A stretch of 64,000 bases of DNA. It comes from Anagrus nilaparvatae (taxonomy: Eukaryota; Arthropoda; Insecta; Hymenoptera; Mymaridae). The number at the start of each line of letters is the position of its first letter. The stretch's first letter is position 1. The DNA lies in contig JAKSXM010000014.1 in assembly GCA_022575985.1 (NCBI GenBank), forward strand, positions 7,006,001 to 7,070,000, written 5' to 3'. The notes beneath the pieces were generated by a model that made no database searches, was not told the DNA's origin, and was given only the letters and a program-made list of their open reading frames with translations. Shown piece after piece: positions 1,431 through 61,425 of this stretch. The position numbers and the translations under genes are program-made.

Positions 1431-3943
1431 AATTGATGATATTTCACAACCGTTACGAAATTAAGACCTATTTTTTTTTTCAAAAATTTTTTCACCAAAA
1501 AAGCTCGAGGTACTTTTTTTTTTTTTTAATTTAGATGTAATACCTCATTTATTTCCACGAAAGTACGTATATTCGAAAGTATAATTTTTACTCTATATCT
1601 CGAATCTGATACTTAATTTGTTGAAAATTTTTTTCCAAAAATTTTTTTCACGAAAAAATACAAAAAACAATTTTTTTTTTCTTTTTGGACGTAGTATCTA
1701 ATTTCTTTTTATGAGAATGAAAGTACTATCTTGAATAATTATTATCCAATGAATTACGTTAGATTTTATTTTGAAAAAAATAGATTTAGTTGAATTCAAT
1801 ACATAAATTTTCTTTTAATTTTTAAAAGTTAATAGAAATGAATGTATGATTGCATGGTTGTAACCGGTGATATCTGTGGCATATTGAAGTATTTAGCTCT
1901 TTGTTTGAGGAACCTTATGGCAGGGTATTTTTAACAGTTTGTTAAATTTGAGTGAGATTTTGATTATGTTTGTTTAAGAAAATTAAGAAAATCGTCATAA
2001 ATATTAAATCAAAATGACAGCTAATTAAAAAAAAAAAGGTAAGTTGAAATAAATGTTTATTGTAATAAGAAACAGGTATCCTAATAAATAAAGTCGTTAA
2101 TATAAAATCATGAATCCATAATTATTAGTAGACAAATAAAAAAAAAAAATAGATATCAATACGGCAGCAGAGGACACTGAATTCTCAGTTGTAAAATATA
2201 GGTATACGCAGGAGGTAGGTAACTGGTATAATTAAATAATACCTGTATTTTTTTTTTGGCTAATAATAATTATAAATTAATGATTAAGATACCTTTTTTT
2301 AATTACGATAAAAATTTATTTCAACTTACCTTTTTTTATTCAATTATTTGGGATTTCGATATAATACTTATGTTGATTAAAACATACTTTAACAAACATA
2401 ATCTAAATCTGACCCAAATTTATCAAACTGCTAAAAAAAATAAATTTACATATACCCTTGTAATATGCAAGTATACATATATTTATCCATATATTTACTA
2501 ACAATTAGAATTAAATAAAATGAAGAATAAAATATAGTTAAAGGTTCTTAAAAATAGTTATCTATTAATTTAAACAAACAATACACATCTTTTAAAAAGT
2601 ATAAAGAATGAAAATAATTTTTTTTTTTAAGATCAATTTTTATTCATAGATTTGTTGTATATTAGGTCTTAATCATCATTACATTTATATAGCATTTATA
2701 CTTTTTTGTTGCGATTTACCCAATTAACACGTACATAAGGCCTTCGGACTTAAAGGGATTTTACCTTACATGAATTGGTATAATTGAATTTGTATTGTTA
2801 TACTTTGATGCAGATTAAAAGATTTAATACAAAATTTAAATAAGTACATTCTCTGCGCGAAGCGCTGTTGGATCTAGTGCTATAAAAAATTCAATGAAAG
2901 AATTACATTAAAAAAATGCCCTAGATCGCCGTTTACTCGGCTTTGCCTCGGATACTAATTTACTTGCGGTCTGGGACAATCTTTACTTTTATGGCCGCGT
3001 ACATAAATATATTCATTCTAAATACAATTTTTATTTGTCAACATCAATCTTAAAATATTTTTGTTTAAGTCCCTAAAAATTTATATACGTTGTCAAATCT
3101 TATGTTCACTCTCGGAATGGCAGTTAGTATAATTAAAAACAAAAATTGTCCAATGACTTATTTATATTTTAACATCATAATTATGTGATAATATAATTAC
3201 AAAATTTTAATAATTTAATAAGTAAAAAAAATATTTAGGTTTTCAATTAAATATTTGTAAACGAAAATTGAATAAATGGATTGTGATTTAAATATACCAT
3301 TGATATAAAATCGTATTCAATACGAACCCAAGCAAAATACGTACATCGTTTTCTACCCGAATGACGTATGTGTTAGTAGTCAGCTGATAGGTTTAATACT
3401 CTATATTGTTATGCAATTTGCATTTTTGGAGTTAGGCGGAAGGAGATATTATATAATAATAATTCCCCGAAGTTTAAATTCGTGTATTTTTTCACCGAAT
3501 AAAATCATGAATTTTAAAATCACGTGAGTTAAACCACGCCTATAGTCTGAAATGCGAACAGATTTGCCGGCCAACAATATTCTAAGAAAACCCAAACTGA
3601 CTATCAAATGTAAATATTCTACGAAAATCGACAGCGACAAGTGAATAGTAATTAATTATTTTTTAATTATAAACTTTGATTTAGATATGTAAATATGCAA
3701 AGAAGTATGCAGATTTTAACACGATTGCCTTTGTTTAACAAGATTCCAAGATAATTTACATTATATAAATAATAATTATATATAAATAATAATTATTAGT
3801 TAAAGCACATAATAATAATAAATAAATATTCAAAATACTTACGTATTTCCATCTTTTGTGTTTTTTATATGATAATTGCGTTCTTTATAATACACACCTC
3901 CTTTTTCCTTAAAAATAACTTTTTCAGATTCAATATTAGCCAT
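1..3943 (-). CDS. Gene A: FLYWCH-like zinc-finger protein, 5' part (exon 1 3843-3943, exon 2 <1-206)
   Basis: A two-exon minus-strand model that runs off the left edge. Exon 1 starts at the ATG at 3943 (MANIESEK...) and ends at 3843 with 33 codons plus 2 nt, followed by a GTAAGT donor. Exon 2 starts at 206 after a T-rich TTTAG acceptor; phase 2 is kept and the frame stays open to the window edge. The joined protein reads F-x-E-K-G-G-x-x-Y then Y-I-C-x7-C-K-T and later I-H-T-C...H, which is the FLYWCH/GCM-WRKY zinc-finger layout (aromatic-x-C, C, H/C-rich end). Such domains bind DNA and in insects are often fused to MULE transposases; whether a MULE part follows lies outside the window. Intron 1 is 3.6 kb. 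The gene lies head-to-head with gene B. Confidence is good for the exons because motif, splice sites and phase agree; the biological role is unknown. Confidence 0.72.
1085..2616. repeat. Foldback element with ~90-bp inverted ends and an inner hairpin
   Basis: The segment 1085-1178 (containing TTTTAAAAGTTGTCTATGTG) is the inverted copy of 2530-2616. Inside, 2020-2064 (AAGGTAAGTTGAAATAAA) pairs with 2308-2346, making a second 0.3 kb hairpin. No transposase ORF is present, so it is probably a non-autonomous DNA element or a nest of two. Confidence 0.55.
1216..1428. repeat. Simple repeats: (TGGATA)n and (GT)n
   Basis: TGGATA units at 1216-1250 and about 16 GT dinucleotides at 1396-1428. The apparent open frames here (Met-Asp and Val-Cys runs, His-Thr on the other strand) are translation of the repeats and not genes. 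Confidence 0.9.
2936..3010. repeat. Dispersed repeat, TCGGCTTTGCCTCGG family, copy 1
   Basis: Shares TCGGCTTYGCCTCGG, AATTTACKTGCGGTYTGGG and TCTTTACTTTTMTGG with 18180-18260, and more weakly with 9556-9640. This gives three copies in introns of the two FLYWCH genes. The element type is unknown. Confidence 0.5.
3843..3943 (-). CDS. Gene A exon 1
   Basis: Start codon at 3943-3941 with A at -3. It encodes the F-x-E-K-G-G-x-x-Y start of a FLYWCH-like domain. It ends in phase 2 before a consensus GTAAGT donor (plus strand ACTTAC at 3837-3842). Confidence 0.7.
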
Positions 3944-4869
3944 TATAAATAAAATATATTTTTTCTTTATTTTCTATGAGAATAAGATTAAAATTTTGTC
4001 TTCACAACACATCACTGTTTTCCAATTTTTTGATCGAACACAACCACTATAAAAAACTTAGACACTCTGTTTATTATGATTTAAAGATTTTTATATTTTT
4101 TTGTAAAATAAAAATACATTTGTAATTTAAACTCTTTATACAAAGTAACGCATACAAAAAAAATGACAGAAATGACCCGCGAATCTTCTGCCTAGACAAC
4201 TCTTCTATCTCTTTCTGAAATTATCAATGCGGTGGAAAAAGATTGCGTGCGCATTCAGATATTAGACGCTTGATAAATCGGTATAGGCACGTACCGCGCG
4301 CTTACCCAAGAATCAAAGTTTCGTATTGAAAACGAACTGACTTAACTGTGTATACAACAGAGATAACAAGTGTAGTTTATTCGCGTTTTCTCCCCTATAA
4401 ATCCTTCACACTGTGAGTTTAGATAAATTACTGTATAACTAATCAGTGTTTATATTTTTAATACAGTAAATGAAATACTTTAATAAAAATAAAATATCTT
4501 TAATAAATTTTATGTTAATGTATTAAAGCTTCTGCTTATGAATATTCCTGCTTATATTATAAAACATGGAAAACATGCAAGCTTTTGATAATCCAATGAT
4601 TCAGTTGCATGTGTGTTGTAAATCTGCGTTGTAAATACACTTATTAAGAATCACATCAATTTGAATTTGCGTTTTTCAAAGAGAAGAAAAAAAAATTATT
4701 TTTACGTATAAATTATTATTTTTAATTGTGTTAAAGTGAGACTTCGCACGTGATCTTCAATATTAATAATTTCTGCTATAATAAGAAAAAAAAATTATAT
4801 ATCTTTGGTTATTTACATTTTAGTTAGTTTACATTTTTTGTACGTTAAAAGTGCACAAGTATTTAAAAA
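3944..4869. promoter_or_regulatory. Divergent intergenic region between genes A and B
   Basis: This 0.93 kb stretch separates two start codons that face away from each other. It holds the only GC-richer patch nearby (about 4160-4330, with GTGCGTGCGCATT and CGTACCGCGCGC) in a strongly AT-rich setting, as a shared bidirectional promoter might. The role is inferred from position only; no TATA box or start site can be assigned. Confidence 0.35.
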
Positions 4870-4997
4870 ATGTCTGAAAATAATTTTGGGAATACAAACT
4901 CTCTTTTTGAAAGACAAAAAACTGAACCAACTTTTATTGATGGTAACATGTGGTTCCAGGACCATCGATTTCACGCCCACGATAAAAAAAAAGTCAT
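4870..4997 (+). CDS. Gene B exon 1
   Basis: ATG at 4870 (MSENNFGNTNSLFERQK...), 42 codons plus 2 nt, then GTAAGT. It encodes F-I-D-G-N-M-W-F...H-A-H-D-K-K-K, the N-terminal half of a FLYWCH-like domain. The frame with TTG upstream at 4805 is not used: its reading carries no domain. Confidence 0.65.
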
Positions 4998-7900
4998 GTA
5001 AGTATTCATAAGTTATTTATCTCTTATCTTATTAAGAGTACCTAAAATTTACCCTTTTTGTAGTGGAATGTTTTACTTTCAGTAAATATAAAACAAAATT
5101 GTTTATACTTTTTAATTATATTTAAATTCTTTAAATAATTAAAATCAAGTTTTTAATTGAAACATTTTGTTTATACCGAAAATTTTTCTATTAATGTAAA
5201 ACATTTATTATAAATTTAAAAAATAATTATAAAAATTGCTTATTACCTTCAATAACTTATTATAAAATTTTAAAATGTCAAAAAACAATTTTTATAAACA
5301 AGGGCTGGAGCGCATTTAGCTTGATGGTGTTCTATTGACAAAAAATTGGTAGAGTCTGGGAATTTAAAAAAATCTAATTATAAGGCATAGTTTTTACACA
5401 CGACCCGAAATAACATTTTACTCAGTTTTTTGAAAAATTTATTAATCTGATTACTATTATTTGTTGAACTTTTTATTTTTTATTTTATTTTATTTTATCT
5501 ATTTTATTTTATTTACCACTATCTTTTATTTAAGCTGTTAATTTTTTAATATTCAAATTTTGTTGGTAAAGAACAGGTGCAGGATGGTAGCCAAACATAA
5601 CTAAAAAATTTGTTTTTGCATTGTATATTTTTTTTAAATTTATATTTTGTGAATTTAACAGAAATTCAAAAGAGACACCTCGGCAATAATTAAAAAAGTT
5701 AATATCCAAATTTCAAGCTCTTAAATGAATTATTTTTCTACAAAACTTTCTTAAGGTTACAAAAGTCCGTATTTTTGTTTGTATATTTTTAGTTTTCATT
5801 CTCTAATCCATACTTAATTAACTAATATTTAGAAAACCGAAGAAAATCTGAAATACATTGAATTTTTTAAATTAAAAAAAAAAATTAATCTTTTAGTGGA
5901 ATAAGAAATATTTTCCCATGTAACGTAACTGGATAAATTTTTTATCGTCTTTACAAATTGTCGTTATTTTTGGAAAAATGTTTTATTTTTTTAATTATAA
6001 TTTTTTTTTAAATATTGATATCCGAAAATAAATTTTTTCTAAAATATTTTATAATTACAAAATAAAATTAATAAAAAAAAACTGGACAGGTGTGTCTAGG
6101 GACACGCGGATGAAGTTTACTTCTTTCTATAGCAATCGGTATAACGAACAGCTTTTAAAAGGCCACGTATTATTTCGCTAATTTTTTACTTGCCCTCTTA
6201 AAATTAAATAGTATAGAATAAGGAAAAAAAACAATAAAAAATAAAACAGGTATAAATTAGTTAATCTTTATTAAAAAAATTTATACCCGTTCTATTTTTA
6301 TCATCAAATTTTATTTGAATAAAAAGGATTTATTAAATGCATATACATATAATTAAAAAACAGTAAATAAATATAAAATAAAAGAAGTATACAAAATTAT
6401 GATGTGTACCATGACAAGAAAGAAGTAAACTTCAAAAAAATCGAATCCATCCAAACGCCATCGATTACGATCGGATCTACCTACGAACGAACTCACCCGA
6501 CAGCCCTCGATTAATTTCGGATTTACCGGCAAGTGGGGATAAGTCACTATTCTGACTTTCTAATCTCGTTACGAGTTCATCATGACGATTTTACATGACG
6601 ATTTTACATGACGATTTTACATGACGATTTTAACATGACGATTTTTTAAATTTTAACTCCTCGTAGAAAAATAAAGGAGATGTGTACGATGACAAGAAAG
6701 AAGTAAACTTCAAAAATTTAACTACAAAATTAAAAGCAATTTGTCCATGTGTTCCCATTAAAATTTTTTTTTATTAAAAATTTTTACGCACTTCCTATAC
6801 AGTATGCTAATAACAAATAATATTAAAATTAAAATATCTATATATCCCGCTGTTCAAAATTTTTTAATTTATTTCGTTAATAGTTATTTTAATAAAATAA
6901 TAAAGCATTCTTTTTATTACTTAAGTATCTCTCAAATATATCAATAAATAATAATTTTATTAATTTTAATTAATCATTACAGACCTGCCACACTGTCGAA
7001 TAAAATGAAAATAAAAATAAAATTAAAAAATTATCAGTGGAGAAGGAAACTGTTATTTTATCGATAATCAAATAACATTAAGGTAATAAGTGAAATATTT
7101 ATTAAAATCACTCAATTACCTGAATAATAAATAAACTATTAATTTTAATTAATTATTAATGCATAAATAAAAACATTTTTAAAAGCGCGGTTTCCCCCTC
7201 CACTGATAATTTTTCAATTTTATTTTTATTTTCATTTTATTCGGCAGTGTGGCAGGTCTGTTAACGAAATAAAATAAAAAATTTTTAAAAGCGCGCCATA
7301 GGTATTTTTATTTTTATTATTATACCTATTTATTTTTATTAGCGTTATTATTATTATTTAACATTTTTTTAAATAGTCCTTACGTGTTTATAATGGTTTC
7401 TAACAAAACTTGTACTTGCCATAAATGGGTTTTGTTTTCAGTTTCCATTAAAAAAGGGGACGTAAAATCAAAGAAGTTCAGTAAATCTTTTTTATTTTTA
7501 AAAGAAGTTACTGATTGAATCAAAAAATTAAGAGTTACAAGCTCTCAGCATTAAGAAAAAACATAAAAATAATCAAAAAATTGTTCGAAAGCTATTGGCT
7601 TTCTTGATAATTTCTGGAAATTTGTCATGTATATGAGCAATTATTTTAAAAGTGATACTTAATTTGAGCCTGGAATCGTAAATTTTTTTTTTTGAGGGCC
7701 CATCGATATGACCCGTGTTTTCAGATAGTTTGAACCTTCAGAAAACCGAAAAAAATCTTGAACAAGAAATCGGCGATAGGTGCCAAAAAGATTTTTTCAC
7801 TTTTATGTCAAAAAACGTGTTTTTCGTATATATGAGCTACCCTAAATTTTTAAAATAACTTTTTAGGTAAAAAAACTTTTTTAAAATAGATAAGAAAATC

Positions 7901-22250: not shown

Positions 22251-22264
22251 AAATGCTTTTGATG
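22251..22264 (+). repeat. Target-site duplication, 5' side of R1-like copy 1
   Basis: AAATGCTTTTGATG, repeated exactly at 24852-24865 after the poly(A) tail. Joining the two restores the reading frame of the host pseudogene (V-N-A-F-D then E-L-I-A). Confidence 0.92.
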
Positions 22265-22265
22265 G

Positions 22266-24548
22266 GGTCCCAAGGGGTCCAAGCTCCCTGCTTGGCATGG
22301 AGGGGCCACAAGTCCCCATGAGGCTGAAATCTTAGTTAAGAAAGTAACGTCTCTATTATGCGGGGCTTGTGATGCCTCGATGCCTCGCCGCAGGCCCTGG
22401 AAAGGGAGAAAGCCAGTGTACTGGTGGACTCCCGAAATAGCTGAGCTCCGGAAGGAATGCCACAGGACACGACGAAAGGCGCAAAGAGCGCGGGACAGAC
22501 CTGAGGCTGCCGTGCTTTCTCAGGAACACAAGGACGCCAAACACCGGCTGGCCAAGGCCATCCGTCAAAGCAAGGCCCGATGTCTGTGTTCATTACGCGA
22601 TGATGTAAACAAGGACCCCTGGGGCCTAGGTTACAAAGTCGTAATGGGCAAGTTAAACCGGGGGTCCGACAACATGATGGACGCGGCGTCGACTGAACGG
22701 ATCGTCGGTGCTCTCTTCCCTGAAAGGCCCATCCGGGAAAACCCGGTTGAGGTGATACCCAGGGAGGAAGTGCCGCTGTTCAGCGAAGGCGAGATGGTCA
22801 AGGCCATAAAGGCCATGAAAAATGGTAAGGCGCCGGGGCCGGACGGGATACCAGCGGAAGTGCTCAAAAGAGCGGTTAAAGTAATCCCTGGTATCCTGTT
22901 AAACATGTTCAATGCGTGTTTGGTGGCTGGAGTGTTCCCAAAGCAGTGGAAGGTGGCACGTCTCGTGCTCTTGAACAAGGGCAAGGGAGGAGCCCCGGAC
23001 TCTCCATCATCTTACAGACCTTTGTGTATGTTAAATACCATTGGTAAGGTGATGGAGAGTATGCTCCGGGCAAGGCTCAGAAGGGCAATCGAGGAGGGCG
23101 GTGGTCTCTCCGAGGAGCAGCATGGCTTTCGTGAAGGGCATTCTACGATAGACGCCATCCGGCGTGTCGTGGATACCGTAAAGGCTGAGAGGGAAAAGCG
23201 GCCTGCAATTCGCAAGGACGTCCTTCTGGTAACGCTGGACGTCAAAAACGCTTTCAACTCGGCCAGGTGGGATGACATGATCCGGTCTCTCGAGTACGAT
23301 TTCCAGATACCCAGCTATCTGGGTAACGTACTAAAGGATTACCTGCGGGACCGGAGACTGCTCTACGACACGCTCGATGGAAGGCGTGAAAGGGTTTTGA
23401 GTGCAGGCATCGCGCAGGGCTTGGTTCTTGGACCGGACCTGTGGAATGCCTTTTACGATGGCTTGTTGCGCGTCCACCTCCCGGAAGGAGTTTCCCTGAT
23501 CGGGTACGCCGACGACGTGGCCCTGACCATAACTGGCAGGGACATGGAAGTGACCCAGGAGAGGTTGAATCTAGTCATGAGACGGATCAACCTCTGGATG
23601 GGCGATCACGGGCTCCAGCTTGCGATCCCAAAAACGGAGATTGTACTGCTGACCCGTCGAAGGGTTCCCACCGACTTCGATGTAATTATCGACGACGGCG
23701 GAAACCCTCACACGATCCGAACCAGAACATCGGTGAAATACCTGGGAGTTCAGCTTGATAACAAGCTGACCTTCTGGGAGCAATTTCAGAGGTCGTGTGA
23801 AAAGGCAGCGTCGGTCGCATCCTCCCTGTCAAGGCTCATGGCCAACATTAGGGGACCCAAACCAGGGAAGCGAAGGCTCCTGATGTCAGTCGTCAACTCT
23901 GTCCTGCTTTACGGATCAGAAGTCTGGGCGAAGACCACAGAAATTGCCAAGTACAGACATAAGATATCGTCTGTACAGAGGCAAGCGGCAGTGAGGATCG
24001 CCTGCGCGTACCATACGGTATCGCTCGAGGCGATCCAGGTTGTTGCTTCGGTGATACCCATCGACCTGCTAGCGTTGGAGCGGAAATTCATCTACGAGAG
24101 CGTAGATGAGCGCGAAGTGGCTTCCACTCGCGCCCGCTTCAACTCTATGAAAGCATGGAATAAACGATGGAAAAAGAACCAAGAGAAGAATGCTCTATGG
24201 ACGCGCAGACTGATCTCAAACCTGCAGGCATGGATGGGACGACAGCATGGGGAGGTGGATTTCCACCTTACCCAGTTCTTAACCGGACACGGGTATTTCC
24301 GTGTCATGTTGAGGCATTGGCATAAGGTGGCAACAGAGGAGTGCTTGCACTGCCCAGGCGAGTAGGATACAGTAGAGCACACATTCTTCGAATGTGTTCA
24401 CTACTCGGGGGGGCGCCCGCCCTTCCCGATTTGGAGGCCGGAGACGGTGGTCCCGGAAATGCTACGGAGTTCCGAAAACTGGAACAAAGTAGCAGAGTAC
24501 GTAAGGGCCACCTTGTTGAAGAAAAAGGAGGAGGGCTTTCTATCGTAG
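22266..24548 (+). pseudogene. ORF2 remnant: reverse transcriptase of R1-like LINE
   Basis: The frame is open from the left junction (no start codon of its own until 22380) and encodes: a basic linker (K-P-V-Y-W-W-T-P-E-I); RT motifs K-A-P-G-P-D-G-I-P, S-Y-R-P-L-C-M-L-N, L-D-V-K-N-A-F-N-S, G-I-A-Q-G-L-V-L-G-P (family usual G-V-P-Q-G-S) and the catalytic Y-A-D-D at about residue 378 from 22380; and C-L-H-C of the C-terminal CCHC. A premature TAG at 24363-24365 cuts the zinc knuckle; copy 2 has Val-Asp there. The same frame continues to TAG at 24546-24548 and supplies the H-T-F-F-E-C half of the knuckle. About 760 codons of a full ORF2 of roughly 1,000. Confidence 0.9.
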
Positions 24549-26113: not shown

Positions 26114-26394
26114 TCCAATTCGATCCCCTACCTTAACCGAAAAACAAAAATATTTTTCATAGCTCTATGAAATTTTATTTTTTTTTCATAGCCCTATGAA
26201 ATTTTATTTTTTTTTCATAGCTCTATGAAATTTTATTTTTTTTTCATAGCTCTATGAAATTTTATTTTTTTTTCATAGCTCTATGAAATTTTATTTTTTT
26301 TTCATAGCTCTATGAAATTTTATTTTTTTTTCATAGCTTTATGAAATTTTATTTTATCGGCTATGAAAGAATTAAGGTAGGGGATCGAATTGGA
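26114..26394. repeat. Foldback with a palindromic ~29-bp minisatellite core
   Basis: CCAATTCGATCCCCTACCTTAA (shown here as positions 26114-26135) is inverted at 26372-26394. Between them are seven tandem copies of TTTCATAGCTCTATGAAA followed by TTTTATTTTT; every unit is itself a perfect short palindrome apart from the centre. Confidence 0.85.
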
Positions 26395-34014: not shown

Positions 34015-34880
34015 GTTTTTCTTAAAATATAAATCCTAATGAATTTGTTATATAATAAACAGGTTACGGATATTAAATTCAACGCTATTAAACCAAATTT
34101 TATTTGATTTTGCTAAAATTGACCTTATAAACGCAAAATTTTAGGCCAAAGATCTAAAAATTTCACAATTCTTAAAATTTAAATCCTAATTAATTTTTTA
34201 TATAATGAACAGGTAACCGATATTAATTTTAATGCTTTTAATCCAAAATTTATTTAATTTTGTTAAAACTGACCTGATGAATGCAAAATTTTAGGCAAAA
34301 AATCTAAAAATTTCACAATCCTCAAAATTTAAATCCTAATTGATTTTTTATATAATGAACAGCTATCCGATATTAATTTTAATGCTTTTAATCCAAAATT
34401 TAATTACTTTTGCTAAAATTGACCTTATAAACCCAAAATTTTAGGCCAAAAATCAAAAAATGTCACAATTCTTAAAATTAAAATCTTAATCGAATTTTCA
34501 TAAAATGAACAGCTAATCGATATTAATTTTAATGCTTTTAATAAAAAATTAATCGAATTTCGCTTGAATTGACCTTATAAAGGCAAAGTTCTAGGCCAAA
34601 AATATAAAATTTTCATAATTCTTAAAATTTAAATTACAATTGATTTTTTACATAATGAACAGCAAACGGATATTAATTTCAACGCTTTTAAACCAAAATT
34701 AATATAATATCGCTAAAATTGACCTTTTGAAGGCAAAGTTCTAGGCCAAAAATCTAAAAAAATACACAGTTTGAAAATTTTTTATTCTAATCGATTTTTT
34801 ATTTAATGAACAGCAAACCGATATTCATTTCCACAATTTTAAGCCAAAATTAATTTAATTTACTTATAAAAAACGCAGTA
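34015..34880. repeat. 150-bp satellite, block 1 (six monomers)
   Basis: The landmark TATAATGAACAG recurs at 34051, 34201, 34351, 34501, 34651 and 34801, a period of exactly 150 bp. Monomers share AATCCTAATTGATTTTTTA, CGATATTAATTTTAATGC, TTGACCTTATAAA and TTTTAGGCCAAAAATC. Confidence 0.93.
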
Positions 34881-41694: not shown

Positions 41695-42772
41695 CTACTC
41701 GATGACCTCGAACTCACTGTGAGGGGTGCGTTGTCTAGGAAGGCGTCTGCGAACGGGGCATACATTTGCTCTAATTCAGATGTCACTAAAGGCAGCTTTA
41801 ATTTTTAATTATTAATTATTCTATACACTAATGCTATTGACATTAGTACATTAATATGATGAATGGCAGTATGGCTGGGGCTTCTCTGGAGCAGGGCTCC
41901 ACAGCAATGTGGCCTTGCCCTACAGAGCAAGGTAATCGTTGCTGCTGGTTCATTCATGTTTGTGCCCTTCACCTGCTGTCTGTTGGGGGGATTCAGAAAA
42001 AGCCACGAAAAGAGCTGAAAAGTTCGCTGGGATTGGCTGCATGTGTTTCTGTCTAAACAAAAAACTGTTTACTTTAAATGTGATATATGTGTTGCAGCCA
42101 ATAACTTCGGGACGTAAGGCTTGAAGCGGTAATTATCAGATAAACCCTTGCAGCTGCAGGTGTTGGGCGCGAACATGACTGATCCTACGATCCCTGATTT
42201 CGGTGAGCCCTGCGGCGTTCGCTCCATGACTAGTCAAGAAGCTTTTTTTTTGTTTAGAGCTTCCCTGACTAACCTAAAATCTAATTAAATTGCACAAGTG
42301 TGTAAGTCCCAGGAGCAGATGTCTGGGTGGATGTCGCATTCTTTCTTGCAGTGCAAATCGAATGATCGAACGGCACGTGCTGTTTTCACCTGGTGATCAT
42401 TTGATCATCTGTGGAAGTAATCTTACTTTTGTAAGAATCATTGGGATCTTGACCAATCGCTAGGAATGGCTTATGAGGATCCTGTTAATACGACGGGTAA
42501 AATATCGTATTATGTCAGCAGACATTAGATCTGTAGGACTCGCAACAGTCACCCCCCTGTGTCTTGTACCCAGGGTGAGGATTGCTGTGGGTCTGAATCC
42601 CCGGTCCTATCATCTCACCACTTTTTCCCATTTCATTACAGGTACACTAATTACAATAGTTCTTTACAGGTTTTTTCTTTTTTCCAGGTTATCACATCGC
42701 ACAGAGGGTACCCTTACCTGCATTCATTTAAGGGCGCTTAGTCCAGTGACACAGGCTACTTAAATAACAAAT
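41695..42772 (+). promoter_or_regulatory. 5' leader of R1-like copy 2
   Basis: GC-richer sequence before ORF1; contains CTAATG...CATTAG hairpin near 41830 and several short unsupported frames. In this class the leader carries an internal promoter; none could be pinpointed. Confidence 0.5.
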
Positions 42773-44365
42773 ATGCAAAATGATAAAAATGATATACCTC
42801 AGGCTGATAAGCCACTTCAAGAAGTGTCGAATTCAGCTGTCAGTTCCGATCGGGTGAAAGCCCCGGTGGCTGGCACCGGCCCCATGGACTCTGAGGGGGG
42901 CCAACAATTTTGCATGGAGGCGGATTTAACACCATCTTCCGCCCAGGGGGGATCACGAAACGAACTTCAAGCCATAGTTTTGCTTGAAGATATTCAGCAA
43001 ATGCCAAAAAAGCCAAATGCACCTAACAAGGGTGCAAGGGATACCGTACCAAGCTATGCGGAGCACTTCAAATATCTGCAAGGCATACTACAGGGTACCG
43101 ACAGCCTTGACCAAGGACAGGCCATGGCACAAACAGTGATGGAAAGGCCTAATGCCTATCATAAGTTTATCGCCGTTGTAAAGGATGCTATACAGGCAGT
43201 GGAAAAACATCACAAGGACATGAAGGAAGCAAATGACAAGATGACATACCATTGTTCAGAAGTCCAAAGAAATTGCGGCATGCCCATTAAAATGGGAGTG
43301 AAAGACCTCGATAATGCCCTTATCCAAATTGAGTTGATCGCGAAGAGACTGCGTGTGGAAACACAAGAAATTGAGTCTGCTCATGGGAAAGCATCGCAGA
43401 AAATGGCAAAGAGGGTCCGATCGCCTTCTTCTGAAGAGAATTCTCCAGAATCAAGGCAAATAAGCAAGATCTCCAAAAGATCCCTCCAAAATGCTAGCGG
43501 TATAGCTACATCTGAGGAGGAGCAGCAAAAGAACGCGAAGCTCCAGAAAAAAGAGGAGGAGGAAATGCTGCGTAAAGACACTCTGAGAAAAGAGCAAGAG
43601 CAGAGGAAGAAGGAAAATGCGCGTTTGGAAAAGGAGGAAAAAGAGCGGCAGAAAAATGAGAAACTGCTCCAGGAAAAAACAAGTCTGCTACAACTACACC
43701 AAAAGCAGAACCTAGAACAGAGGAAAGCAAAGGCGCCACCTAAAGAGAAGGGAGGAGAGCATCCCAACAGGGAGGACCCAAAGACGGCGCCTAACAACAC
43801 CAAGGCGGACGGCCCACGGGATAACTTTGGAACCTCCCCAAGGAAGGATAAAAAATCTCCCAAGCATTTGTCCAAAAAGGAAAGAAAGCAACAAAAGAAG
43901 CTTAGAAAATTGCAGCTTAGGCATGGAAGCAACTCACCCGAAAATACGAATCAGCCATTTGAAACAACGCAGATGGCTGATGGAAGGGTGAACAATCAGG
44001 CGCAATCTCAGAGGCCAACGGACAAGGAGGAAAACTGGCAGGTAAAGGGTAGAACGAAGAAGATACCCAGAGCCAAGAGTGCCCAACAGGCTAAGAAACC
44101 TGCTGAAAAAGTTCTTCCAAAAATGGGAAGGCGCAGGTATAGGAAAAGGAAGGAAGCCTTCCAGATTACCCCAGCGGCGGGTAAGACGTACGAGGAAACG
44201 CTCATCGATCTAAAGCGCAATGTTAACCTCGAAGAAGCTGGAGCGAAGATTCACCGCGTCAGGAAAGCTCAAAATGGCAGTGTCCTGATCGAGTTGGATG
44301 CAATCCGGAAACCCTCACACGATCCGAACCAGAACATCGGTGAAATAGCTGGGAGTTCAGCTTGA
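42773..44365 (+). CDS. ORF1 (Gag-like) of R1-like copy 2, C-terminus replaced
   Basis: 530 codons from ATG (MQNDKNDIPQADK...). An N-terminal acidic/low-complexity part, a coiled-coil-like segment (about residues 120-215), then a very Lys/Glu/Gln-rich stretch (residues 215-420) and the conserved Gag core near the end (D-L-K-R-N-V-N-L-E-E-A-G-A-K-I, V-R-K-A-Q-N-G-S-V-L-I-E-L). In R1-type elements three CCHC zinc knuckles should follow; here the frame leaves after L-I-E-L-D-A-I-R into the wrong frame of ORF2 (K-P-S-H-D-P-N-Q-N) and stops. The protein could still bind RNA through its core and basic tract, but lacks the knuckles. Confidence 0.85.
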   Translation: MQNDKNDIPQADKPLQEVSNSAVSSDRVKAPVAGTGPMDSEGGQQFCMEADLTPSSAQGGSRNELQAIVLLEDIQQMPKKPNAPNKGARDTVPSYAEHFKYLQGILQGTDSLDQGQAMAQTVMERPNAYHKFIAVVKDAIQAVEKHHKDMKEANDKMTYHCSEVQRNCGMPIKMGVKDLDNALIQIELIAKRLRVETQEIESAHGKASQKMAKRVRSPSSEENSPESRQISKISKRSLQNASGIATSEEEQQKNAKLQKKEEEEMLRKDTLRKEQEQRKKENARLEKEEKERQKNEKLLQEKTSLLQLHQKQNLEQRKAKAPPKEKGGEHPNREDPKTAPNNTKADGPRDNFGTSPRKDKKSPKHLSKKERKQQKKLRKLQLRHGSNSPENTNQPFETTQMADGRVNNQAQSQRPTDKEENWQVKGRTKKIPRAKSAQQAKKPAEKVLPKMGRRRYRKRKEAFQITPAAGKTYEETLIDLKRNVNLEEAGAKIHRVRKAQNGSVLIELDAIRKPSHDPNQNIGEIAGSSA

Positions 44366-45155
44366 TAACAAGCTGACCTTCTGGGAGCAATTTCAGAGGT
44401 CGTGTGAAAAGGCAGCGTCGGCCGCATCCTCCCTGTCAAGGCTCATGGCCAACATTGGGGGACCCAAGTTAGGGAAGCGGAGGCTCCTGATGTCAGTCGT
44501 CAACTCTGTCCTGCTCTACGGATCAGAAGTCTGGGCGAAGACCACAGAAACTGCCAAGTACAGACGAAAAATATCGTCGGTACAGAGGCAGGCGGCAGTG
44601 AGGATCGCCTGTGGATACCACACGGTATCTCTAGAGGCGATCCAGGTTGTTGCTTCGGTGATACCCATTGACCTGCTAGCGTTGGAGCGGAAATTCATCT
44701 ACGAGAGCGTAGAAGAGCGCGAAGTGGCTTCCACTCGCGCCCGCTTCAACTCTATGAAAGCATGGAAGAAACGATGGAAAAAGAACCAAGAGAAAAATGC
44801 CCTGTGGACGCGCAGACTGATCTCAGACCTGCAGGCATGGATGGGACGACAGCATGGGGAGGTGGATTTCTACCTTACCCAGTTCTTAACTGGACACGGG
44901 TACTTCCGTGTCATGTTGAAGCATTGGCATAAGGTGGCAACAAAGGAGTGCTTGCACTGTCCGGGCGTGGATGATACAGTAGAGCACACATTTTTCGAAT
45001 GTGTTTGCTACTCGGAGGGGCGCCCGCCCTTCCCAATTTGGAGGCCGGAGACGGTGGTCCCGGAAATGCTACGGAGTTCCGAAAACTGGAACAAAGTAGC
45101 AGAGTACGTAAGGACCACCTTGTTGCAGAAGAAGGAGGAGGGCTTTCTATCGTAG
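44307..45155 (+). pseudogene. ORF2 C-terminal remnant of R1-like copy 2
   Basis: Matches the post-RT thumb and C-terminal part of copy 1, after an in-frame TAG near 44348 (TAC in copy 1). From 44445 it is open to TAG at 45153-45155 and includes the complete C-terminal zinc knuckle C-L-H-C...V-E-H-T-F-F-E-C that copy 1 has lost to a stop. It has no RT catalytic motifs. Confidence 0.88.
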
Positions 45156-49520: not shown

Positions 49521-50439
49521 CAGCTCATATATATAAGTTTTAACCATTTAAAATCAATTCAAGAATAATATTTCCAAAACTGACCCAATAAGGCCGAGAA
49601 TCTGGAAAAAAATCGTAAATTCAAAATAAAAATTAAATTAATCTTTTTTTCAAAATTTAAACAATTAAGACAGTTCCCCGAAATCAATTTTAACCAATTA
49701 AAACCATTTCCAAAAATATATTTGCAAAATTAAACCGCTAAGGCGAAATTTCTAGGCCAAAATCAAAAAAATTCAAATATAAATTAAAAAAAGCTTTTTT
49801 ATCAAAATTAAACGCTTTAGGCACCTTGCCGAAATCAATTTTAACCAATTAAAACCATTTCCAAAAATATATTTGCAAAATTAAATCGCTAAGGCGAAAT
49901 TTCTAGGCCAAAATCAAAAAACTTAAATAAAAATTAAAACAACCTTTTTCTTAAAAATTAAACGTTTTAAGCAGCTTGCCGACGTCAATTTTAACCATTT
50001 AAACCTATTTCTAAATATATATTTACAAAATTGACCGATTAAGAGCAAAAATTTAGGCCAAAAACGGAAACTGAAAATAAAAATCTAAATAACGTTTTTC
50101 ATCAGAATCATACGCTATCAACAGTTTCCCAACATTAAATATTACAAAATTAACCTATCCCAATAATTATTTTTAAGACATTATAACCAGAAGACCAAAT
50201 TTCTGGGCTAAAAATTTAACTCTTAAACAGAAACCAAAATACATATTTCTAACTAAAAATTAGGTTTTTATCAGTTTCCCAACATTAAATACTACAAAAT
50301 TAACCTATCCCAATAGTTATTTTTAAGAAACTATGACCAGTAGACCAAATTTCTGGGCCAAAAATTTAACTCTTAAACAAAAACCAAAATACATATTTCT
50401 AACTAAAAATTAGGTTTTTATCAGCTTCCCAACATTAAA
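49521..50439. repeat. 150-bp satellite, block 3 left (about six monomers)
   Basis: The equivalent landmark falls at 49680, 49831, 49981, 50131, 50281 and 50431. The last three monomers contain TTCCCAACATTAAA. The block is interrupted at 50439 by the first R2-like element and resumes in phase at 54156. Confidence 0.92.
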
Positions 50440-51934
50440 CAGATAAAAATATTTATTCAAAAAAGAACTTCCCCCCCACTAGGGGAGGGTAAAAATTTAC
50501 ATTTCATTGGAGAAATTTCGAGGTCTCCAGTCCCCTCTATTAAAGTCATTCTTTTTGCTTAGTTTAACAATAAAAAATATGTGATTTCATTTACATAAAT
50601 AAAAGACATATATAAATTTATCAAAATTATAAAACTATCTGTAAACAATATAAATATATACAATTATTTGTCAAACAAACAATACATAATTGAATCTTAA
50701 AATCATTGATTTTTTGCTTTAAAAAAAAATAAATATATAATTGAATATGACCCTTATGACATAACTGGGTAGGCATTACAGAAGAGCAAAATAAAAAATA
50801 AAATAATAAATATAAAAATAAATTTGAAAAAGGTAAAAAAAAACTCTTGATTAAAAATATGAATATTGAATATATATTAATTATATTGCCGTACTCCAGA
50901 AACGTGTTCCACATAGATGTCTCTTGACCAGCGAATCGTATCGCTTATCATCAGTCTCCTCATCCTCTGTGCATAACGCTGTTGTTGAGGAGTCTGTTGA
51001 TCCGCTCGTTTCGCCAGTCCCATCCAACAAGAGACCCGACAATAAAGGCATCTTCTTGTCGTGTCGCCTTTTTTGTATAAAAGGACTGTGTTAGACGTTT
51101 TCCAGCTGGAAGGAACAGCCTTGAGTTGCATTACCTTGTTAAAGTAGGCAGTGAGCACATGACAACCTGGGTCCGCCTTTTTCAAGTCTTTATATGTCAC
51201 CCTGTCGGGTCCAGGGGACGAATTACTCATTTTCCACAGTCTCCGCGTAACTTCTAACCTTGAAATTGACGCAGCCAGGCAATCACAGCTTTCCCTACTT
51301 GGCGGTGGCTGATCGAAGACGGCAGGCAACTCGCCTGCAGAGTCTCGTATGGCGTGTACATTTGTAAAATATTCTTGGACACTATACTTGTCAATATCGC
51401 ATACAGGCATAGGGCCATTAAAAACCTTTTGAATCGCCTTCTTTCTATTATTATGGTAGAGACTCTGCAGTCGAGTTGCCGCAGCAATTCGGTCTGCCTC
51501 TGCATTTCTCGGGGCTGTTCTCGGAGGCCGATTATTATTGTTGGTTTGTCGAACAGTTTGATGTCGATTCTCGTCCTCTACATTAGAAAATCTACCTAAA
51601 AAACCAGCAACTTGAGGCGCAATTTCCTCTAGTTGCTGTAGATTCACTACACCTTCCAGTATCGTCATTAGCTGAACGTGCTCAGCAGTAGGCTGTTGTC
51701 GTCGTGGTATATTGCGACTACCTCGATCAACAGTCACTATTGGAGGTGCTTCAGTTACTGGTGGATTGGGAACGTTTCCATTTGTAGTAGGATCAAGAAG
51801 AGTGTTTTCCCGGGTCTCTTCGTTCGTCAAGTCACTGGATGTCATAAAACTACTTTCATTTGTGATACTGGTGTTGGGGGATGTTGTTATAGAGACATTT
51901 ATGTCGAAATTCGGGTCACATTCAATTGATGTCA
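50440..51934 (-). mobile_element. R2-type non-LTR retrotransposon, copy A, internally deleted
   Basis: Lies between two copies of a 25-bp satellite sequence (50415-50439 and 51935-51959; begins TTTTTATCAG, ends AACATTAAA). Minus strand: ORF from 51935 to 50877, then a 3' region with GGGGACTGGAGACC and a TACCCTCCCC-GGGGGGG hairpin, shared with copy B. No poly(A) tail. It keeps the N-terminal third and jumps within the RT to the last ~60 codons. Confidence 0.85.
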
Positions 51935-51935
51935 T
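50877..51935 (-). pseudogene. R2-type ORF, N-terminal part plus C-terminal tail (copy A)
   Basis: 352 codons from MTSIECDPNFD. Residues 1-130 are Thr/Asn/Pro/Gln-rich without the CCHH fingers and Myb motif usual in R2. From about 135: A-A-A-T-R-L-Q-S-L-Y and V-F-N-G-P-M-P-V-C-D-I, S-S-P-G-P-D-R-V-T-Y (RT motif 0/1) and N-T-V-L-L-Y-K-K-G-D. After K-K-G-D the frame jumps to sequence corresponding to the C-terminal end (C-W-M-G-L-A-K-R-A-D..., in a shifted frame at first) and ends V-E-H-V-S-G-V-R-Q-Y-N. The catalytic Y-A-D-D, zinc knuckle and endonuclease are missing, so it cannot move on its own. The A of the ATG comes from the target sequence. Confidence 0.83.
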
Positions 51936-51959
51936 TTTTATCAGCTTCCCAACATTAAA
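51935..51959 (-). repeat. Single 25-bp target copy between the two R2-like elements
   Basis: Identical to 50415-50439 and 54156-54180. It forms the 5' flank of copy A and the 3' flank of copy B. Confidence 0.9.
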
Positions 51960-54155
51960 ATATTTATTGAAATAAAGAACTGCCCCCCCAAAAGGGGAGG
52001 GTAAAAATACATATCATTGGAGAAATTACGGGGTCTCCAGTCCCCTCTATTAAGGTCATTTTTTGCTTAGAATTAACAAAATATTAAAAGAATTATTTTA
52101 TAAAAATTATTGTACAGAAAAAAAAAGAAGTCATATAAAATAATTATTTACAAACATATACAAAATTTTGCTTATAGGCTAATAATTTGGACCCTATTTA
52201 ACGCGCTGGAGTAGACGAAAAAAAAGAAAAACTCATAAAACTACATTAAAATACATTTAAAATAAATTAAAGTTATAAACAATAGAAATAAAAAAATAGA
52301 ATGAAAACAATAAATGCGTTTTGATTTATCGATATTGTCTTACTCCCGACACGTGTTCGACATAAATGTCCCTTGACCAGCGAATCATATCGCTTATCAT
52401 CAGGCTCCTCATCATCTGCGCATAGCGCTGATTGATGTTGAGGAGTCTGATGATCCGCTCGTTTCGCCAGTCCCATCCACCAAGAGAGCCGACGACAAAT
52501 GCATCTACCTCAACCGAGTAACCCTTTCCTCAGAGAGGGATGTTTCTCTCAGCTAGGAGATGGTAGTGATCAACTTTACGTTGTCTAGCTTCATCGAATG
52601 CAACCATATGGTTCTCAAAGGGAACAGTTACGTCAATGATGGTGATTTTACGCTTGACATCGTCACGTATGACAATGTCAGGACGTAGTAGCGCCAAATC
52701 GCCGACTTCTCCCGGTACAGTCTGGTTTGTAGTGACTGTCCCACGGGTGTTAAGTGCTTTCACGAGACGGTCCTGTATATTATTGTCTCGTCTTTGGATA
52801 CCGTCCGCATGTACTCCACAATGCCCGATCACATGGGGCAAGGTTTCTTGCGGGTGGCCGCATTTACGGCAACGTTTGTCACCTTGCCTTTACCAATGTC
52901 TAGCCGCATTTAGTGGTAGACAATTGAGTCTGGCTCGATGGACAAAGCGCCAGTCACAGAAACGAGTGAAGCTTCCAGATCGCATATTGTGATTTGAAAA
53001 CTTACACTTGCTCGTGACTTCGAAAACCTCACCCTGGTCCTTTTTAGCGAGCAGAGATTTTAAATAATGACTAGTAAGAGCTGTTCCCATCCTCCGTATT
53101 ATCTGTGATCTGGACTGTGGAAGCACAACTACTGTCCTGTCTCCTGTCGTGTTACACTCTAGTGAGTATTCGTGGCGATGTACACTCCAGTGCCATTTAA
53201 ATCCAAGCCTGGTAATTTGCCTACGGGCAGCATTTCTCGACCTGGACCAGAATGAATCTGTCTGTGTTCCCACCATCATGTCATCATCAAGACTGCCCGA
53301 CAGGAACCTTGCGCAATCAACTTCAGAAGCCGCTTTTTTCATCCTAATAGAGGTGGCCTCTCTGAGTGACGACATGGCCAATTCACTCACAGTCGCATCT
53401 TTGCAGGTTAAAATTTTGAATGCATGTGCGACGGTCAGCAAATCGACTACGTCGGCTAGGGGAAGTAGGCCTCCTCCGCCCCTGTTCGGGGGGAGAAAGA
53501 CGACCTCCGCACTAGCTCTCTGAGGAAGGCTCATCCAATTTTTTGCCATCTTTTTAATTGCTTCATCAGCTTCTTTAAGAGGCTTTTTCTCCACGTTGGC
53601 ACCCTGGAGTAAAAAATCTAACCTTGGTAATATAAAAGTTGACATAGCGTCAAGCTTTTGCCAAGGGGCCAACATGGAGTCATTGATTTTTGCAAGGTCC
53701 TGCCTGACATCCTCGATGGATGACACAGGAGTTTGACGCACTTCATACCCAGTAGGGATGCCTAGGTGTTGGTATGGGTCACCAAATTTTAATGTCTGGA
53801 TACACTGTCCAGCGATAGTAAATGCCGTTGGTAGTACTGCATTGTCCCCATGACCTTTTAGGTGTAGGGATGCACATTTTTGCGGGTTGAAAGCGAGACC
53901 AACAACGGCAGCCGCTTCTTCTGCTGTCCTTAGAAGCGTGCGCATTCCCTCAACCGAGTCCGCCAGAAATGCCATGTCGTCCGCATAGGTTAAATTGTTA
54001 ATTGTTTGATTAGCTAATTTGTAACCTTGACCTGTTCTTTGGACAGACCTCAGAACAGGTTCAAGCGTGAGATTAAATATTATGGGACTCAATGGACATC
54101 CCTGCCTGACCCCCGAAAGAATGCGAATCGGAGAGTGCGAATTCAATTGATGTCA
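51960..54155 (-). mobile_element. R2-type non-LTR retrotransposon, copy B, 5' part deleted
   Basis: Same orientation and same target junctions as copy A. The 5' end has the same 14-16 bases as copy A (TGACATCAATTGAA), then jumps into the RT. 3' region 51960-52325 matches 50440-50876 (AATAAATAT end, GGGGACTGGAGACC, C-run hairpin). Confidence 0.87.
52326..54146 (-). pseudogene. R2-type ORF, RT core to endonuclease (copy B), two in-frame stops
   Basis: One frame from 54146 to TAA at 52326-52328 with nonsense codons at 52890-52892 (TAA) and 52530-52532 (TGA). Order: G-V-R-Q-G-C-P-L-S-P (RT motif), N-L-T-Y-A-D-D-M-A-F (catalytic), thumb; C-R-K-C-G-H-P...H-V-I-G-H-C (C-x2-C-xn-H-x4-C knuckle, just after the first stop); then L-R-P-D-I-V-I-R-D-D, I-T-I-I-D-V-T-V-P-F-E and A-R-Q-R-K-V-D-H-Y, which are the PD-(D/E)XK motifs of the R2-clade restriction-like endonuclease. 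This places the element in the R2/R4/NeSL group. The N-terminal region is deleted, and the short ATG frame at 54156 is out of phase with this one. Confidence 0.9.
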
Positions 54156-54600
54156 TTTTTATCAGCTTCCCAACATTAAATACTACACAATTAACTTACC
54201 CCAATAATTATTTTTAAGAAATTATAACCAGTAGACCAAATTTCTGGAAAAATTTTTAGTCCTAAACCAAAATCAAAATACACATTCCTAACTAAAAAAC
54301 ATGTTTTTAACAGCTTCCTAACACTCAATACTATACAATTAACTCACCCCAATAATTATTTTCAATAAACTATAACTAGTAGACAAAATTCCTAAGGGAA
54401 AAATTGAAAAACCTACATATAAATTAAAAATCAAAAATTTATGTAATTTTCCGAATGAAAATAGTTTCCCAACATAAAAAAACATTAATTTAAATTAAAT
54501 TTAAAATTATTTGACCAAATTTGACCGTCCAAAACCAAAAACCTAGGCAAAAATTGGGAAACCTACATATAATTTAAAAATCAAAAATTTTACAAAATAC
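54156..54600. repeat. 150-bp satellite, block 3 right (about three monomers)
   Basis: Resumes directly at the third copy of the 25-bp target and continues TACTACA-CAATTAAC in phase with the left block. Later landmarks at 54320 and 54471 keep the period at 148-151 bp. Confidence 0.88.
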
Positions 54601-59312: not shown

Positions 59313-59984
59313 CACGGTAGAGTTGCTTTGGTTGAATATTCAACCAATTGGTTGAATTTCGCAGTTTTTGGTTGAATTTTCAACCAATTGGTTGAATATT
59401 AAACCAAAGACTGCGATTTTCAACCAAAAACTGCGATATTCAACCAAAAACTGCGAAACTCAACCAATTGGTTGAATTTTCAACCAAAAGTGGTTTAATT
59501 TTCAACCAAAAGCTAAAATACAAAATAAAAACGATGTTTTTATAGTACAGGGTAAGAAATGATCAGGGCATCCATTAAAAGTGAATGAATTTTATTATAT
59601 TATTGTAATTAGTAATTTTTTATGTACTACTTCTTTTGGCTTTGAAACTGAGGAATGACTAATTAAAAAGGTTATCATACGATATAGAATAACAAAATGG
59701 CGGCTACCTAGAGAAAGTTAAAATGAAATAAAAAGCCTTTAATTTTCGAGCAAAAGTAGCTGTAAAATTTTTTTTAAAACATAAAAATACTAAAACTCGA
59801 CGACATCCCGAAATTAGTGCATTCATTAAGTTGCTTAGCAAGTTTAAAGTAAATAGGTGCAGATTTTATCGCGCAATCGTGTGCATTACTTTTCAAAAAC
59901 GTTGTTTCGAGTAAAATGGCTTTAAAGTTTTAGATGAATTTTTTCGGTACTTTTAGTTATTAAATTATTTATTTTAATGCAAGA

Positions 59985-60600: not shown

Positions 60601-61425
60601 TTTTTTTTTATTCATTAGAGAAATTTATAACAGAAAACTCTAGATCAAAAAAATTAAAATCGGTCACGTAGTTTTAGAGAAATCTTAATTAGAAGGTGTA
60701 AAAACATAGTTTTCTAAATAAGAATACAAATTTTTTTTTTGTATATTTAAGTATAGACTTATAAGTTATCAGTTATTTTTTAGCCATAAAGTTATCTTTT
60801 TGGTTTTCATACTGAACCTGTAGCTGATTTTACCCCTGCTGCTTGTCTGATTTGCCATTTTTTACCATTTTGGCACGGTTAAATTTGGCGTCATAAACAA
60901 TCGCGAATATTAGCAAAATTTGCTCATAATTTCTATCAATGACCAGTTCCGACATAATTTCTAACTATATTTAACAAGAAGGATTTAAAAATAAATTTTT
61001 TTACATACTCCTGAGACATATAAAAAGTAATTAATAAAAAAAAATAATTTGATTATTAAAAAAAAAATTAGGTAAAACGACAGGAAGTTAAAGCATACAA
61101 TATTAAGTTTAAAAAAATTTATCATACTATGTACAGAGCCAATAGATGTAGTACATAAAAAATTACTAATTACAATAATACAATAAAATTCATTCACTTT
61201 TAATGGATGCCCTGATCATTTCTTACCCTGTACTATAAAAACATCGTTTTTATTTTCTATTTTAGCTTTTGGTTGAAAATTAAACCAGTTTTGGTTGAAT
61301 ATCGCAGCTTTTGGTTGAAAATCGCAGTGTTTGGTTTAATATTCAACCAATTGGTTGAAAATTCAACCAAAAACTGCGAAATTCAACCAATTGGTTGAAT
61401 ATTCAACCAAAGCAGCTCTACCGTG

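Follow-up and report, generated by a model that had tools for sequence, protein, structure and literature searches.

Utopia elements are non-long-terminal-repeat (non-LTR) retrotransposons with a restriction-like endonuclease (RLE) that enter U2 small nuclear RNA (snRNA) genes at nucleotides (nt) 38/39 (Kojima & Jurka 2015, PMC4640811). In the portion of that study on which we draw, insertion is strict in some host lineages and loose in others, tandem insertion is occasional, and some families lie partly outside U2 with U2-like junctions; the rule followed by loose families is only hinted at by these short junctions. The same portion states that arthropod families form no target-site duplication (TSD), that reptile families form one of 20 bp, and that TSDs can seldom be recognised at crocodilian junctions, and its hosts include Pogonomyrmex, Ladona, Alligator, Chelonia, and Pelodiscus. 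Here, we describe two adjoining elements, E1 and E2, inserted in a 150-bp satellite of Anagrus nilaparvatae (Hymenoptera, Mymaridae), within a stretch of 64,000 nt that we call the window (GCA_022575985.1, contig JAKSXM010000014.1, positions 7,006,001 to 7,070,000; coordinates below count from its first letter). They are best explained as defective copies of a Utopia-type non-LTR retrotransposon, with reverse transcriptase (RT), CCHC motif, and RLE, whose family home is the U2 snRNA gene; we put the probability of this explanation as a whole at about 0.92. The satellite spot appears to have been hit because it imitates a short U2 sequence, which makes the satellite look like an incidental landing site rather than a new target.

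Two defective elements in a satellite array

The features of the locus are as follows.

50122..50439, no strand assigned: 150-bp satellite, 2.1 monomers, left of E1 and E2
Expected nick 50290/50289, minus strand: unoccupied TGTAGTAT site in the left satellite block
50416..50439, minus strand: target copy 3, 24 bp, TTTAATGTTGGGAAGCTGATAAAA on the minus strand, read as the 3' TSD of E1
50440..51935, minus strand: E1, Utopia-type copy, read as the first of the two insertions
50440..50444, minus strand: 3' tail of E1, ATCTG
51920..51935, minus strand: F, the first 16 nt of E1, ATGACATCAATTGAAT
51936..51959, minus strand: target copy 2, 24 bp, read as the 5' TSD of E1 and the start of the 3' TSD of E2
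51960..54140, minus strand: E2, Utopia-type copy, 5'-truncated with its start inside the RT, read as the second insertion
52530..52889, minus strand: C-terminal part of E2 with CRKCGHPQETLPHVIGHC (CCHC) and an RPD..D restriction-like endonuclease motif, both by eye
54141..54180, minus strand: 40 bp read as the 5' TSD of E2, namely the target (24) plus 16 nt copied from the start of E1
54156..54408, no strand assigned: resumption of the satellite, in phase
54180..54188, minus strand: GTGTAGTA^T, a U2-like site with its nick between 54181 and 54180 (element strand)

The 25-bp satellite segment TTTTTATCAGCTTCCCAACATTAAA occurs exactly at 50415–50439, 51935–51959, and 54156–54180 (expected number 0, from 100 shuffles), and the neighbouring monomer at 50265 carries it with one mismatch. 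The three exact copies bound two elements in the same orientation, both on the minus strand, and the satellite, with a period of 150 bp, is back in phase after the second of them (identity 83–88%). On the three exact copies, the shared orientation, and the return in phase we agree with the first-pass annotation, which had been made from the letters of the window.

That annotation had also called the elements R2-type with an RLE, which is borne out by an RT domain in E2 (Pfam RVT_1, 2e-14), by its RLE motif, and by the closest solved structures, which are R2 protein chains (PDB, E down to 3.4e-72). E2 is interrupted by in-frame stops at about 52890 and 52530, between which lie the motifs that we take to be CCHC and RPD..D restriction-like endonuclease. 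E1 is 5'-truncated inside its open reading frame (ORF), and an internal deletion (junction at about 51060) has removed what lay between a point in the RT region and a point near the ORF end. Of the protein that it shares with E2, an N-terminal piece and the C-terminal end are left, with the middle gone, and E1 has no Pfam match of its own. The alignment of the two elements is confined to three pieces: a 3' coding piece of 175 bp (87%), the 3' end (85%), and, at 100%, the first 40 bp.

The 3' tail of E1, ATCTG, matches U2 nt 38–42 letter for letter. Moreover, AATAAATATTTTTATCTG at this end is identical to the 3' junction of a copy residing in U2 (L014); this exact 18-mer occurs six times in the genome, with E1 and L014 accounting for two of the six. 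We infer that the RNA of E1 ended in a few U2 nucleotides, derived from a U2 read-through transcript.

Copies elsewhere in the genome

We searched the genome (488.7 Mb, 393 contigs) for further copies. A 14-mer from the 3' end occurred 21 times, twice in the window and 19 times elsewhere; all 19 outside loci were examined and 18 were element copies, whereas L020 was rejected as a chance 14-mer match without an element. Queried with the 120-bp 3' end of E2, the genome yielded 72 candidates, 40 of which were scored, all with E ≤ 1.4e-21 (2 in the window, 15 of the first set, L029, and 22 new ones); 3' flanks were read for 20 of the 22 new copies. The 3' flank was thereby examined for 39 copies outside the window (18 + L029 + 20). 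Common flanks were shared by L011/L017, L023/L026, L016/L059, and L052/L053, so the number of independent insertions is below 39, and L024 has lost its 3' end. L016 and L059, separated by about 4.4 kb of contig C79, point in opposite directions and have the same 3' flank by eye; they are probably an inverted duplication.

Four of the 39 copies (L011, L014, L017, and L050) adjoin U2 snRNA directly on their 3' side, with the flank starting from nt 39 as in Utopia; in the first three, this flank is Rfam RF00004 (U2). L013 has U2 on its 5' side and begins right after U2 nt 1 to ~33. The 3' flanks of the remaining copies match neither the satellite nor U2. None of the 39 lies in the 150-bp satellite, and the strongest satellite similarity outside the window in the first comparison was 29 bp long (E 0.001, in L027).

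These counts bear directly on the proposal of the first-pass annotation that the family is specific for the satellite and recognises the monomer itself, for which the two insertions at one exact monomer position speak. The listing of the sequence beside each 3' end, which that annotation had suggested as a check, came out against it, with 0 of 39 copies in the satellite and 4 of 39 running into U2. Satellite loci with an intact site on contigs C47, C95, C337, and C342 (about 3 kb each) contain no recognisable element; their matches of 29–72 bp to the 3' part of L029 are presumably A/T-rich simple sequence. The 20-bp nick region of the satellite, allowing one mismatch, was found at only 15 genome places as a lower bound (two intact and one altered in the window array, the rest on C47, on C342, and as scattered singles), and the exact 24-bp target at at least four, three of them in the window. 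We therefore consider satellite specificity scarcely credible.

The assignment to Utopia draws on the proteins as well. The family combines RT with a C-terminal CCHC and a PD-(D/E)xK-type RLE, as Utopia does: RVT_1 was detected in E2, L013, and L014, and CCHC and RPD..D were seen by eye in E2 and L013, Pfam zf-RVT being weak at the CCHC (E 0.069 in L013). Utopia has 1–3 N-terminal zinc fingers and no Myb domain; two CxxC...H motifs that might correspond to such fingers are visible at the N-terminus of L014, and Pfam up to E 5 shows no zinc finger there and no Myb. Close RT matches were found in Pogonomyrmex, Ladona, Alligator, Chelonia, and Pelodiscus and in further species. L013, L014, and L029 are clustered on contig C62. 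In L013, a sister copy associated with U2, a frame of 1097 aa (3083-6373 of that locus) runs without interruption across RT, CCHC, and RLE, and the family may therefore have been active recently.

The nick motif and the tandem pair

U2 is nicked at nt 38/39 (PMC4640811), where the site reads TAGTA^TCTG. In the genome, TAGTATCTGTTCTTATCAGC is present at 8 places, all U2 genes by their surroundings, and is preceded by GTG in five and by GCG in three. The satellite reads GTGTAGTA^TTTAATG at the nick. We looked for the same letters at other insertions by way of their TSDs, comparing the sequence upstream and downstream of each element without use of the motif; a TSD was called strong when it was reached by at most 1 of 300 shuffles. 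The 21 copies tested were 14 of the first set, E1, E2, and 5 new copies, selected out of 20 because their 3' junction was clear; three of these five were tested again with a longer upstream stretch.

Strong TSDs were found in 9 of the 21 copies, at 8 independent non-U2 nick sites (L009, L018, L025, L027, L043, L055, L056, and the window), and all 8 sites have T(G/T)TAGTAT at the nick. TAGTA ends within 2 nt of the aligned TSD start in 7 of the 8, overlap with the A/T-rich tail blurring the last base or two; in L025, the TSD follows TAGTA directly once 10 bases assigned to the tail are counted in. The motif was first noticed in the first set, so that the later sites L043, L055, and L056 provide the cleaner test, and it is present in all three. 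Given a background of 2.6e-4 per position and strand, the chance of 8 out of 8 with a slack of 11 positions is about 4e-21, by simple multiplication that ignores post hoc choice. Additionally, L023/L026 (one insertion) has a weak 11-bp TSD with the motif (12 and 5 of 300 shuffles), and in L010, L015, and L019 TAGTA or TGTAGT lies no more than 14 bp from the 5' end, a reliable TSD not having been found. Most copies seen lie outside U2, with 8-bp U2 look-alikes wherever the nick could be pinned.

With the nick set after TAGTA, TSD lengths are 16 (L056), 19 (L018), 24–25 (E1), 40 (E2), 43 (L043), 58 (L025), ~94 (L055), and 162 bp (L027), and L009 has a TSD of ~287 bp with a 12-bp gap. Since the motif at the nick is constant and the TSD length is not, the first nick is tied to sequence, unlike the second cut. 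Outside U2, too, the endonuclease would begin by nicking T(G/T)TAGTA^T, which is the core of its site in U2; reverse transcription would be primed at this nick, often halting before the 5' end of the RNA, and the second strand would be cut at a very variable distance from the first nick. We infer that the RLE reads the T(G/T)TAGTA motif directly. Alternatively, the motif could reflect pairing of U2-tailed RNA with the target and not nick specificity of the protein, as might be suggested by E1, L009, L010, and L014, whose tails are U2-like (ATCTG or shorter versions of it). However, the conserved TAGTA sits 5' of the nick, on the side that is unpaired with an RNA tail, and it is kept where the 3' bases are not U2-like (L018, L025, L027, and the window), which makes this alternative unlikely.

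On the element strand, the locus in the window reads ...GTGTAGTA^T(24) F(16) E2 T(24) F(16) E1 T(24) A CCTAATT... F is homologous to an internal N-terminal coding stretch of L013 and L014 and runs on into E1, while the homology of E2 to the other copies compared starts only after F. We propose that one satellite monomer offered GTGTAGTA^T as a U2-like site, where E1 would have landed first, truncated at F, with a 24–25-bp TSD and the U2-like ATCTG tail. The TSD of E1 kept the original nick site intact 5' of the element, and E2 could therefore nick the same place again; its second-strand cut would have fallen 16 nt inside E1, producing a 40-bp TSD. As this TSD holds the first 16 nt of E1, E2 would be a 5'-truncated copy. 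The view of the first-pass annotation that one site was hit twice, the second insertion coming to lie beside the first, is supported. Its 25-bp target duplication holds for E1 (24–25 bp) as a long TSD, but the duplicated segment of E2 differs, reading as 40 bp.

A single segmental duplication, or an unequal crossover at the target copies, could also yield a pair from one element, and would account for the same orientation, the identical 25-bp junctions, and the 40 identical bp at both 5' ends. However, E1 and E2 are only 85–87% alike where they overlap, whereas the adjoining junctions are 100% identical. Their nearest copies differ too: E1 is closest to L019 (94–96%), whereas E2 matches L014 at ~90% over 1.8 kb and, in its 3' end, L042 at 97%, so that each derives from a source copy of its own. 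Besides, a crossover in the satellite should leave whole monomers between the elements. A duplicated block is accordingly highly improbable, and two separate insertions, as the first-pass annotation had it, are favoured.

E2 as a simple internal deletion was rejected, its first 16 nt being E1 sequence. A related explanation holds that E2 is an internally deleted element whose parent started at the 5' nucleotide of E1; the shared 16 nt would then be a true 5' end and both TSDs 24–25 bp long. In its favour, E1 contains the shared stretch as genuine element sequence, and this stretch starts with ATG. On the other hand, L014, L029, and the L049 copy reach about 1 kb beyond the 5' end of E1, so that the start of E1 looks like a chance truncation, and L013 and L014 carry other letters at the 16 positions of F (the copies compared are without the 5' part of L042). 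We therefore regard a shared 5' end as quite improbable and retain two successive 5'-truncated insertions.

As to how readily one site would be hit twice, site numbers were extrapolated from 132,653 bases, both strands, to the whole genome, giving ~114,000 sites for T(G/T)TAGTAT, 11,000 for TGTAGTAT (3 seen), and 3,700 for GTGTAGTAT (1 seen). With 75 insertions assumed, the probability of a shared site is ~0.02, 0.2, and 0.5, respectively, and the double hit therefore does not speak for satellite targeting but agrees with longer U2 matches being preferred. A 10-bp sequence common to the satellite and U2, TTATCAGCTT, is found on the other strand at a distance from the nick, and is taken as a chance match.

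A broader generalisation, which we offer tentatively and at slightly less than even odds, is that in this genome a retrotransposon specific for U2 still recognises an 8-bp U2 core on the first strand but lacks a fixed second-strand cut, and therefore scatters to T(G/T)TAGTA^T sites. As each insertion leaves the nick site intact on the 5' side, every such stray site would be a reusable landing pad able to stack copies, which this satellite would exemplify.

Several points weigh against our account. A strong TSD was not found in 12 of the 21 copies tested, and TSDs beyond the searched 320–400 bp would escape detection. L012, L016, L021, L022, L024, L049, and L058 have no U2 core at a definable nick; among them, L021 has no TAGTA within 500 bp upstream and the TSD-like match of L022 is weak (12 of 300 shuffles) and lacks the motif. 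The 5' side was viewed for 5 of the 20 new copies, and L043 and L056 were chosen with the U2-like letters after the tail visible. The scored candidates number 40 of the 72, and 20 of the 22 new ones among them were examined. The RT kinship is one of similarity to proteins from listed Utopia host species. Finally, a double hit is unlikely (~0.02) if the ~114,000 sites are used evenly, and has a probability of 0.2–0.5 if longer matches are preferred.

Other features of the window include two further arrays with a period of 150–151 bp (34019-34861 and 49617-50100). The latter distantly resembles the target satellite (68% over 173 bp), and the former shares matches of 21–24 bp only with it. A tandem repeat of 29 bp x 7 copies, 98% alike, lies at 26153-26355, and two clusters of the palindromic unit TTGGTTGAAAATTCAACCAA, or a close form of it, at 59328-59512 and 61289-61410. 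On the plus strand, 22263-24365 is an open 700-aa frame of an R1-like long interspersed element (LINE) RT (clade by eye), and 42764-45155 holds a 533-aa gag/ORF1-like frame followed directly by the C-terminal end of an R1-like ORF2 (44349-45155); this end closely resembles the R1-like copy at 22–24 kb by eye, and the whole is another internally deleted LINE. An Rfam scan of the window gave no family, ribozymes included, at gathering score, and a plasmid search was without match.

Comparison with known systems

The family is Utopia-type. R2 is its counterpart in RT similarity (R2 chains) and in the layout of the present elements, which resembles target-primed reverse transcription. However, the resident copies here are in U2 and none was recognised in ribosomal DNA (rDNA): an Rfam scan of the window and 6 loci showed no rRNA, whereas R2 targets 28S rDNA, and the Myb domain of R2 had no match in L013 or L014 (Pfam up to E 5). 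The YURE elements of Ciona, in the account of PMC4640811, are related RLE elements that sometimes lie in a satellite, U2_sat. That satellite derives from U2, whereas the satellite here has ~9 bp in common with U2 at the nick (GTGTAGTAT).

The TSD-defined sites described here place the nick within a base or two and put the required match at ~8 bp. This match overlaps the branch-site-recognition sequence of U2 (GUAGUA), which hosts are hardly free to alter. A TSD that leaves the nick site intact shows a route to stacked copies, and both the nick rule and the stacking bear on the off-target behaviour of R2-like retrotransposons generally.

The likeness to Utopia, as far as the consulted part of PMC4640811 describes it, extends to U2 insertion at nt 38/39, to RT, CCHC, and RLE, to what may be zinc-finger-like motifs at the N-terminus, to families partly outside U2 with U2-like junctions, and to occasional tandem insertion. 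The difference lies in the duplications: that part of the study states that arthropod families form none, whereas the strong-TSD non-U2 copies here have TSDs of 16 to ~287 bp at a constant U2 core.

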